From an uncultured Spirochaetota bacterium (GTDB taxonomy: Bacteria > Spirochaetota > Spirochaetia > JAFGXN01): a DNA stretch of 42,087 bases. The notes below the pieces were generated by a model that was not told the origin of the DNA, ran no database searches, and worked only from the letters and a program-made list of their open reading frames with translations. Position numbers and translations under genes: made by a program. Location of the stretch: contig CALXOJ010000013.1 of NCBI GenBank assembly GCA_944390005.1, positions 1-42,087 on the forward strand, in the 5' to 3' direction. This document shows, one piece after another, positions 22,161 through 31,834 of this stretch; within the stretch, counting starts at the first letter, position 1, and each line of letters starts with the position of its first letter.

Positions 22161-22172
22161 CCGTTGATATTT

Positions 22173-22290
22173 TTTTGGGCGTCCCGGCTTCGCCGTCGGC
22201 GCCCTCCGAGCTCGGTCTGCCCGCCGATCGGCGGGCAGACGGCCTTCGGCCCTCTCCGGGCGCCTGACGCGTCTTCGGCAATGCGCTGCC
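22173..22290 (-). repeat. Dispersed GC-rich hairpin repeat, copy D
   Basis: Read on the minus strand it carries GGGCCGAAGGCCGTCTGCC, a perfect 26-bp palindrome (22215-22240), and the conserved end ACGCCCAAAAA (about 22183-22172). Copy C at 39877-39975 shares the first block, the arms of the central hairpin and the end. Outer limits are uncertain. Confidence 0.65.
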
Positions 22291-22399: not shown

Positions 22400-22429
22400 T
22401 TGACATCCCCCCCCCCCCCGTGGTATATT
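22400..22429 (+). promoter_or_regulatory. Promoter with poly-C13 spacer (likely phase variable)
   Basis: TTGACA (22400-22405) and TATATT (22424-22429) are separated by 18 bp made of T, thirteen C (22407-22419) and GTGG. The AT-rich stretch 22383-22398 could be an UP element. Slippage in the C-run would change the spacer length. Transcription should start near 22436, just before the GGAG at 22437-22440. The region 22291-22382 shows nothing else I can name. Confidence 0.8.
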
Positions 22430-22447
22430 CACCACAGGAGTTATAAT

Positions 22448-24877
22448 ATGAAAAAATACCGTTTATTCACTTTAATTTTTACGTTGTTGACGGCAGTTGC
22501 CTGTCCGCCGCCGCCGCCTGTAGTTCCGGAAAATCCGACAGACACGGATGGGACGGAAATCGTTTACCGGTTTGAACCCAACGGCGGCAGCGGCAGTGCA
22601 TTTGACTACACCGTCCGTTTTGCCGAAGAGTTTACCTTTCCCGAGAATCCGTTTATAAAGGAAAACTATGCGTTTGTCGGCTGGTCGACGAACAAAAATG
22701 CTACGTCTTCTAATCAACTTTCTCAACCGGGAGAAAGGGAACTTGTTTCTTCCGGGAGTCCTTATACTTATTACGCAATCTGGGAGCGCGGCCGCATGAC
22801 GGTGACCTACAATCCGATGGTGGAAAACGGCAAAACGGTCACGGTTGACGCGCTGAACCAAGACGGTTATATTGTTCTGGCAGACGGCGATGCCCTTTTT
22901 GCTGTTAAAGAGAGCGGAAAATACTTTGCCGGCTGGCGGAAGACGGCCGATGAAAGCGGCGACATTCTCGGACCGGGAACAGCGATCAAAGTTGACGGTA
23001 CGCCGCTGACTTTCTACGCCGCTTATCTTTCTGCCAAACCGGAGACAAAAACCGTTTGGTTTCGAACTGATAGTACAAGCGGTTGGGTCGTTGATGCGGA
23101 GAGCTCGTCGTATACGATTAATGAACATACTCAATCAATCCTGCTGCCCGATGTGAAGGAAAGCTACCCTGGTGTTGATATTACCGCTGACTTTTTGGGA
23201 TGGGCTCTGACGGACAACGCGGCGGAGGCAGAGTATCTTCCGGGTGAAACAATTTCGAGCTCGGTATTGCTGAACGGCAGCTCCGGAAATATTGACATTT
23301 TCGTTTACGCCGTTCTCAAAGAAAGACAGCAGTCGACGGTGAAATTCGATCTGAATACGGAGGAAAACCCCGGCGCGGAGTGGAATCCCAATTCGTCAGA
23401 CTACTATTCGAAGCCGTCATATTATTGGGGGGGTAATGAGCTGCCTCTTCCGTCTGACCGGGATACTGTTTCACACAATGAAGAGATTCGACTTTTCGGT
23501 TGGGAATGGAACGGAACCGTTTACAAATCCGGTGAAACGTTCACCGTACCGGCCGAGTCAGACATAACTTTTACCGCTGTATGGAAAACACCGGTTGCCG
23601 TCAAATGGAACCTCAACGGCGCCCGCATGAGCGATTATTACAAGATTATAGTTGCTGATGATCCCGATGTCGATGCCGACCGCAACGGTGTAGCCGATGA
23701 GCTGGAAAGCGCACTTCCGGGTGATGAAATCCTTTTCTCAGATGACATGCTTCGTCTAATGTGTACTAAACCGCCTTTAGAAGGAAAAGCGTGGGGGCTC
23801 GACGGCATTCAGATTAAAAAAACAAAGAGCGGACAGACGGTAAATGTCACCCGGACCGTTGATTCATATTATTATGATGAATACGATTTCGTTCTGCACT
23901 ATACGCAATACGCATTCGTCATGCCGGAGGAGGAGGTGGAGGTTTCTTTGATTTGGAAAGAAGTTCCGGCGGAATTGGATTTAAAAATTTTAGATTCTGA
24001 CTCATCTTCGCTAGTAATTGCCGATCCGGGAACTGTTTCACTGGATACGGAAAATTTTTCTGTAGTGAACAAAGCCGGAGAAAAACAGATTTTTTCAACA
24101 TATTTTGGCGAGTTGAGATACCTCGGTTTTGTTGATGCTCCTTTGGCTCCAGGAGAGTACCGCCTGCAGTTTGTTGTCGACGGCGCGGTGAAGAGCGAAA
24201 CTTCTTTTACCGTAAAGGGGGAAGAAACGCAGGCGCCGCTGGAATTTGCCTTCGGGGAAGCGGCGGTTACCGTTGAAGATAACCATTACGTTCTGACCGT
24301 TGCGTATACGCACAACCGGGGAAATTCTCTTAATTACGATTTTACCCTTTCCGTGAACGGAACTCCGGAGCAGGATAAGTATGCCTCCGTTGACACCGAA
24401 AAACAGACCGTCACGTTTGATTATCTTTACGGCGACGAATACAATCCCGACGATAAACTGACCGTCACCGCAACGGTTGAAGGACAAGAATTTTCGGTGA
24501 CGGCGACGGTTCCTGCCGACGATTTTTGCCTGTACCCGTCAAACAAAACGGCGCAAATTGCCCTGTTCCGGGAGAGTGAAAGTTCATCGGTCTCAGTTTC
24601 TGTTCCGATTGAGCGGAGTTTCGGTGCTTTTACCGATTTTGATGTGACAGTGACGAAAGAGGGTAATCAGGATTCCATTTATAACGGTACTGTGTATGGT
24701 TCCCGGAAGGAAGACGGCCTCTTTTTGCTGGAATTTAACATTAATAATGTGACGTCCGGTGATTACACACTTGAGATTGTGCCGAGCGGAAAGGCAAGTC
24801 CGAAGGTTGAGTGTACGATTACCGTGAATGAAATTCCTGTCGGAAAACGGATTTACCTCTCTCCGAAGAGAAAGTAA
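22448..24877 (+). CDS. InlB-type-repeat lipoprotein, 809 aa
   Basis: Signal peptide with Cys19 (T-A-V-A-C), then a Pro-rich stretch (C-P-P-P-P-P), so it is an anchored lipoprotein. The N-terminal half has repeated Listeria/Bacteroides (InlB B-repeat, Flg_new) units: F-E-P-N-G-G-x-G, F-V-G-W-S, Y-Y-A-I-W, F-A-G-W, F-Y-A-A-Y, F-L-G-W and F-T-A-V-W. These beta-grasp-like repeats are typical of surface proteins. The C-terminal half is beta-rich with Ig-like segments (L-T-V-A-Y-T, V-T-A-T-V-E-G), ending P-K-R-K. A run of seven G at 23427-23433 lies in the coding region. GGAG at 22437-22440 fixes the start at 22448. It stands alone between two hairpin repeats and has its own terminator. Confidence 0.88.
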   Translation: MKKYRLFTLIFTLLTAVACPPPPPVVPENPTDTDGTEIVYRFEPNGGSGSAFDYTVRFAEEFTFPENPFIKENYAFVGWSTNKNATSSNQLSQPGERELVSSGSPYTYYAIWERGRMTVTYNPMVENGKTVTVDALNQDGYIVLADGDALFAVKESGKYFAGWRKTADESGDILGPGTAIKVDGTPLTFYAAYLSAKPETKTVWFRTDSTSGWVVDAESSSYTINEHTQSILLPDVKESYPGVDITADFLGWALTDNAAEAEYLPGETISSSVLLNGSSGNIDIFVYAVLKERQQSTVKFDLNTEENPGAEWNPNSSDYYSKPSYYWGGNELPLPSDRDTVSHNEEIRLFGWEWNGTVYKSGETFTVPAESDITFTAVWKTPVAVKWNLNGARMSDYYKIIVADDPDVDADRNGVADELESALPGDEILFSDDMLRLMCTKPPLEGKAWGLDGIQIKKTKSGQTVNVTRTVDSYYYDEYDFVLHYTQYAFVMPEEEVEVSLIWKEVPAELDLKILDSDSSSLVIADPGTVSLDTENFSVVNKAGEKQIFSTYFGELRYLGFVDAPLAPGEYRLQFVVDGAVKSETSFTVKGEETQAPLEFAFGEAAVTVEDNHYVLTVAYTHNRGNSLNYDFTLSVNGTPEQDKYASVDTEKQTVTFDYLYGDEYNPDDKLTVTATVEGQEFSVTATVPADDFCLYPSNKTAQIALFRESESSSVSVSVPIERSFGAFTDFDVTVTKEGNQDSIYNGTVYGSRKEDGLFLLEFNINNVTSGDYTLEIVPSGKASPKVECTITVNEIPVGKRIYLSPKRK

Positions 24878-24887
24878 ACGGATCGAG

Positions 24888-24916
24888 CGGAGCGCTTCGG
24901 CGCTCCGTTTTTTTTT
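24888..24916 (+). terminator. Terminator of the InlB-repeat lipoprotein gene
   Basis: A perfect 8-bp stem CGGAGCGC / GCGCTCCG (24888-24907) with a TTCG tetraloop, followed by nine T. Confidence 0.95.
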
Positions 24917-25008
24917 AAATGAAACGGTTTGACCGCAGCCGTCCGCAAACAAACCGAAAGCGCGAGGGATTGGAGCGGAAATGAGCGGCAGACGGAAAAA
25001 AGGCGCAG

Positions 25009-25107
25009 GGCAAAGCGGAAGCTTTGCCTTTGTAAAGGCGGAGGGAAGCCGCGAATTGCAGCGGAAAGCCCGGCGCCCCGCAGGGGCGCGCGCCCAAAAA
25101 CAAATCG
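25009..25107 (+). repeat. Dispersed GC-rich hairpin repeat, copy A
   Basis: From 25032 on it matches the minus-strand copy at 42002-42087: GTAAAGGCG, then GCGAATTGCAGCGGAAAGCC (about 25050-25070), a variable hairpin (CGCCCC-GCA-GGGGCG here) and the end CGCGCCCAAAAA. Just before it is a further 8-bp hairpin GGCAAAGC-GGAA-GCTTTGCC (25009-25028). The part 24917-25008 has no recognisable gene. Confidence 0.75.
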
Positions 25108-31805: not shown

Positions 31806-31834
31806 TTGACGGTAAAAAAAAAGCGGGTTATGAT
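31806..31834 (+). promoter_or_regulatory. Promoter of the PepSY-like pair
   Basis: TTGACG (31806-31811), 17-bp spacer containing nine A (31814-31822), TATGAT (31829-31834). Confidence 0.75.

Follow-up and report, generated by a model that had tools for sequence, protein, structure and literature searches.

A run of 13 cytosines in the promoter of a predicted lipoprotein gene is probably a contingency switch: a tract within a sigma-70-type promoter whose length would change by strand slippage, altering the promoter spacing, and which forms part of a set of about 12 such tracts. The run lies between the -35 and -10 elements (TTGACA-T-C13-GTGG-TATATT) in the window, the 42,087-nucleotide stretch of DNA analyzed here. 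This placement is not chance, as the 12 long runs of the genome are all 11-17 bases long and cluster on lipoprotein genes and -10 boxes. Random on/off switching of surface proteins through copying slips very probably operates in this bacterium.

We propose that slipped-strand mispairing during replication would add or remove cytosines, and that the count would shift the distance between the -35 and -10 elements in 1-bp steps: 16 bp with C11, 17 bp with C12 and 18 bp with C13. From homologous mechanisms we infer that transcription of the lipoprotein gene would be high near C12-C13 and drop away from there; the slippage rates, the spacing dependence of transcription and the surface exposure of the product are likewise predictions. 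The extended -10 (TGG) may make the promoter less dependent on -35 spacing, giving graded output instead of on/off output.

The promoter and its gene

The sequence-only reading had described TTGACA and TATATT around an 18-bp spacer with 13 cytosines, which the sequence matches exactly (Table 1). TTGACA is 1 nt away from the run and the -10 element, a 5/6 match, begins 4 nt past it; a promoter scan scored the pair at 11 of 12 consensus positions. The spacing at C13 is within 1-2 bp of 17, the length that C12 would yield, and the ATG at 22448 lies 28 nt 3′ of the run. The exact arrangement of promoter plus run occurred once genome-wide in a pattern search. C13 is the sole G/C run of at least 8 in the window, and a first-order Markov model of the window predicts just 0.0006 runs of at least 13 per 42 kb, or 0.026 per 1.95-Mb genome.

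Table 1. Features of the lipoprotein locus in the window, and the other long G/C tracts of the genome
Feature	Position	Strand	Remarks
Dispersed intergenic repeat A	22167..22289		upstream of cassette; about ten or more copies in G001
-35 hexamer TTGACA	22400..22405	+	6/6 match; sequence and promoter scan
Spacer T-C13-GTGG, 18 bp	22406..22423	+	sequence; length = 5 + C count
Poly-C13 tract, proposed slippage switch	22407..22419	+	sequence; one of 12 genome G/C runs of at least 9
Extended -10 TGG TATATT, 5/6	22421..22429 (TATATT 22424-22429)	+	sequence and promoter scan
Shine-Dalgarno AGGAG	22436..22440	+	7 nt 5′ of ATG; sequence
Predicted lipoprotein, 809 aa	22448..24877	+	lipoprotein-type N-terminus, MKKYRLFTLIFTLLTAVAC then PPPPP; one sub-threshold List_Bact_rpt repeat
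Intrinsic terminator-like hairpin and T run	24885..24916	+	3′ of lipoprotein gene
Dispersed intergenic repeat B	24954..25100		downstream of cassette; more than 20 copies in each genome
L007			alpha-L-fucosidase lipoprotein, paralogous with L013
L013			alpha-L-fucosidase lipoprotein; assigned via 75% identity to L007
L014			third alpha-L-fucosidase lipoprotein
L008			sulfatase lipoprotein
L009			Big_2 lipoprotein
L016			Big_2 lipoprotein
L017	L212:6173-6189		small lipoprotein; G11 five bases 5′ of ATG
L012			Big_2 lipoprotein; run within 5′ coding region
L010	L205:6093-6255		C13 promoter, TATAAT directly 5′ of 45-residue GtrA-like ORF
L015			GT2 glycosyltransferase; C13 in frame at N-terminus
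L011	L206:5795-5824		7TM-GGDEF gene; G13 at 3′ end, upstream of nadC-like gene

The product had been called an InlB-repeat lipoprotein. Its signal peptide and N-terminus bear out the lipoprotein assignment; the InlB part is weakly supported, by a single match to the InlB-type repeat List_Bact_rpt (PF09479) that scores 24.1 bits (E 3.9e-5), below the Pfam cut-off of 27. A single-sequence AlphaFold model of the protein was too poor for use (mean pLDDT 40), and a search of solved structures with the lipoprotein returned no credible match (best E 0.19).

Spacers of 17 bp are used elsewhere in the window, in the promoter 5′ of the FMN riboswitch (TTGACA-17-TATACT) and in that of another gene, at 31806 (TTGACG-17-TATGAT); the FMN and TPP riboswitches are all that Rfam identifies in the window. 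A structured 5′ leader was considered and rejected, the 91-nt leader folding no better than shuffled sequences (z = 0.32).

A genome-wide set of G/C tracts

G/C runs of at least 9 number only 12 in a pattern search of the window genome, and none is shorter than 11 or longer than 17. Across 196 kb of sampled sequence of the genome, in which the 12 tract loci are included, runs number 77 at length 5, 10 at length 6 and 1 at length 7; there are none at lengths 8-10, and then 12 at lengths 11-17. Chance would not leave such a gap, which fits selection for hypermutable tracts. Lipoprotein genes are found at nine of the 12 tracts; at eight of these genes the tract comes shortly before the start codon, and at the ninth it lies within the 5′ coding end. 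Given the lipoprotein density of the fetched sequence, this association has a chance probability of about 5e-20. The lipobox rule is strict enough to miss the window's own gene, yet even with four times as many lipoproteins as counted the value stays at about 1e-14. In a small comparison, runs drawn from other genomes of this class had no lipoprotein link; of the 347 genomes in the class, as read from a table, only about a dozen have 12 or more such runs. The genome sequence places the locus among about 12 putative poly-G/C switches across the genome, mainly at genes for predicted surface lipoproteins. The set would comprise promoter-spacer tracts, one ribosome-binding-site tract, and in-frame coding tracts.

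That the tracts lie in promoters is, as a general statement, well supported: at seven of the eight promoter-type tracts a -10-like hexamer (at least 5/6) starts within 6 nt past the run; of 426 control windows taken from those loci, 22 show one (5.2%; p = 7e-9). Clear -35 elements are present at the window locus (TTGACA), L008 (TTGACA) and L016 (TTGACT); the sister genome has them at L161 (TTGACA) and L164 (TTGATG-17-CATAAT). At the other tracts they are weaker, with no good -35 at L009, L010 and L014. That a tract determines the distance between two good hexamers has its best support at the window locus, and given the three weak -35 elements the spacer rule may not be valid for all companion tracts.

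The weak elements at L009, L010 and L014 would also suit a hypermutable regulatory tract that acts not through -35/-10 spacing but as a DNA-structure, UP-like or regulator-binding element, which has been proposed for opc and sabA. The extended -10, which lowers the need for a -35, points the same way, as does the sabA tract, which works through composition as well as length (PMC4081817). At the lipoprotein promoter, however, the run is tightly bracketed by a perfect TTGACA 1 nt from it and a 5/6 -10 element 4 nt past it, with an 18-bp spacer between them, and we consider action by structure or regulator binding unlikely there.

Two tracts outside the lipoprotein group have particular contexts. 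The GtrA-like ORF at L010 is probably a truncated remnant, and its start is almost leaderless; at L011, slippage of the G13 run would alter the C-terminal tail only.

Tract length and rearrangement in a sister genome

G001, the other genome of the same genus, serves as a near-sibling because its flanks are 99% identical to those of the window genome over 7 and 6 kb, and 96-97% identical at two other loci. As assembled, tract lengths differ between the two genomes at all comparable loci; a search of G001 for orthologs of L007, L009, L012, L014 and L016 returned none, and the length comparison covers the other loci. Two comparisons are clean: the small lipoprotein gene L017 has G11 here and G5 in G001, and the GT2 gene has C13 here and C5 in G001. 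At the GGDEF gene, G13 here compares with a run of at least 16 in G001. The ortholog of the window lipoprotein, 88% identical, has C21-T-C21 in place of C13, with a doubtful length and a doubtful upstream junction. We distrust this length because assemblers commonly use a k-mer of 21 and because the tracts of G001 mostly lie near contig ends with error-like flanks; C21-T-C21 is probably in part an assembly product. Nor did we count the contig-end tracts of G001 as length mixing, because their error-like sequence could stem from sequencing trouble at long G runs. At L017, the sister locus (L219) has only AGGGGG opposite the G11 run, suggesting that the G run of a Shine-Dalgarno sequence expanded into a switchable tract.

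Both assemblies are drafts, and with the contig-end positions and error-like flanks of most G001 tracts this might point to a neutral run or a product of assembly that leaves expression unchanged. Against this, placement at the 5′ ends of lipoprotein genes is non-random, the 8-10 length class is empty, the tracts recur in the sister genome, and C13 is below the usual assembly k-mer length; we regard a run without effect as quite improbable.

The G001 ortholog also bears on whether switching might be translational, with the run inside an N-terminally extended reading frame. In the window the frame is indeed open upstream through the run (TTG at 22400), but AGGAG and a canonical signal peptide mark the start at ATG 22448, downstream of the run. 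In the G001 ortholog a TAG (of TAGACT) lies between the run and the ATG, in frame with the ATG, so that translation of the gene there cannot include the run; at L007, L008, L009, L013 and L014, too, the downstream frame opens only past the run, which speaks against translational switching at those loci as well. Translational switching of the window gene is largely refuted by the start site and the in-frame TAG, and has in our estimate scarcely any probability. The phase-variable promoter that the sequence-only reading proposed is still the best reading, consistent with the 12-tract set at lipoprotein 5′ ends, the length difference in a relative and the in-frame stop.

The lipoprotein gene has different neighbors in the two genomes: the thi and rib loci here, and dxr and carB in G001. 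In the window genome an EF-G-like gene comes after dxr, and a different lipoprotein gene after carB. Repeats A and B bracket the lipoprotein gene, at the points of rearrangement between the two genomes. Homology to G001 begins exactly at the first C (22407), which, with the changed neighbors and the dispersed repeats at both ends, could mean that a movable lipoprotein cassette has its recombination boundary at the G/C tract, much as G-rich DNA guides pilin variation. Yet a search for donor cassettes found none, and the C21 tract could itself cause chimeric joins in a k=21 assembly. We rank such a boundary low, as very unlikely, because recombination between repeats A and B, or misassembly, accounts for the rearrangement without the tract.

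Precedents, glycan-active genes and a survey of public genomes

The mechanism of the proposed spacing switch is already known from fetA, porA and tp0126, and probably operates here too, in a little-studied, probably spirochaete, lineage. In gonococcal fetA/frpB a poly-C tract between -10 and -35 ranges from C10 to C14 among strains (C13 in FA1090), and its length sets expression (PMC5320596). The window locus likewise has poly-C between the -35 and -10 of a predicted surface-protein gene, but in another phylum and at another gene, one encoding a lipoprotein; it has an extended -10 and is one of about 12 putative switch tracts.

The locus had previously been likened to opc, porA and the poly-G runs of Treponema pallidum tpr genes. 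The porA analogy stands: in N. meningitidis a homopolymer lies between the -35 and -10 of porA and is tuned to 17-bp spacing (PMC7864442), although it is poly-G plus poly-T and the gene encodes a porin. The opc analogy is partial, since the opc promoter has a poly-C of similar length and controls a surface protein, but there the run covers the -35 itself (PMC7864442), whereas the TTGACA of the window locus is intact and separate from the run. The tpr comparison is looser: the spacing mechanism was ruled out for tprL in the TprL paper (PMC7864442). A closer model is T. pallidum tp0126 (OmpW), whose poly-G between -35 and -10 is best at 17 nt total (PMC7864442); it shares with our locus the tract position and probably a spirochaete background, and differs in having G on the coding strand and encoding an outer-membrane protein, in contrast to the C run and lipoprotein here. 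Promoter C tracts of 10-18 also change transcription of surface subunits in Bordetella fim2/fim3/fimX (PMC1891110), there in fimbrial promoters with a fim box.

The genes beside the companion tracts broaden the range of likely targets. A G11-G13 tract lies just 5′ of each of the three alpha-L-fucosidase lipoprotein genes (L007, L013 and L014) and of the sulfatase lipoprotein gene (L008), and all three fucosidases carry F5/8-type C domains. Enzymes of these two kinds trim glycans that are fucosylated and sulfated, mucins for example. With the tract at the glycosyltransferase gene added, these tracts suggest stochastic control of surface glycan chemistry and foraging, besides antigen display. 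The target had been expected to belong to the phase-variable antigen class; the companion genes point to glycan-active enzymes as much as to antigens. Poly-G switching of a mucus-binding trait is known in Akkermansia (PMC13055324).

To look more widely we used the pattern TTGACA-N0-5-C9+-N0-12-TATAWT on public prokaryote genomes. More than 118 stretches matched, many of them in uncultured Clostridia and Mucispirillum and with several loci per genome. Among the matches listed, 62 downstream genes have a ribosome site, and 15 of these carry a strict lipobox, versus 6 of 182 control ORFs on the same contigs (odds ratio 9.4, p = 4e-6). Spanning several phyla, the survey suggests that poly-C-spacer promoters at lipoprotein genes are under-recognized in gut bacteria; it is a lead only, as the genomes are phylogenetically uneven and the pattern sets the minimum run length.

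We tentatively raise the possibility, itself rather doubtful, that the tracts serve bet-hedging for glycan use more than immune escape in a host-associated, spirochaete-like lineage, and that lipoprotein poly-C-spacer promoters are recurrent and convergent across gut phyla (Clostridia, Mucispirillum). If bet-hedging is true, the fucosidase (three copies), sulfatase, Ig-like and InlB-like lipoproteins and the glycosyltransferase would be stochastically switched via poly-G/C slippage. What began as a single promoter would become a coherent set of about 12 contingency loci with three modes: promoter spacing, ribosome site and reading frame. Enzyme targets of the mucin-glycan type would take phase variation beyond antigens and capsules, into stochastic foraging for nutrients at the cell surface.

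Among the matches listed, the spacers of surveyed poly-C promoters (L025-L104) have two length maxima, 15-16 and 19-20, and are scarce at 17-18, a dip that looks as if most stored lengths were off-optimum. The Mucispirillum form TT-C9-ATGA-TATAAT is repeated at many loci among the same matches.
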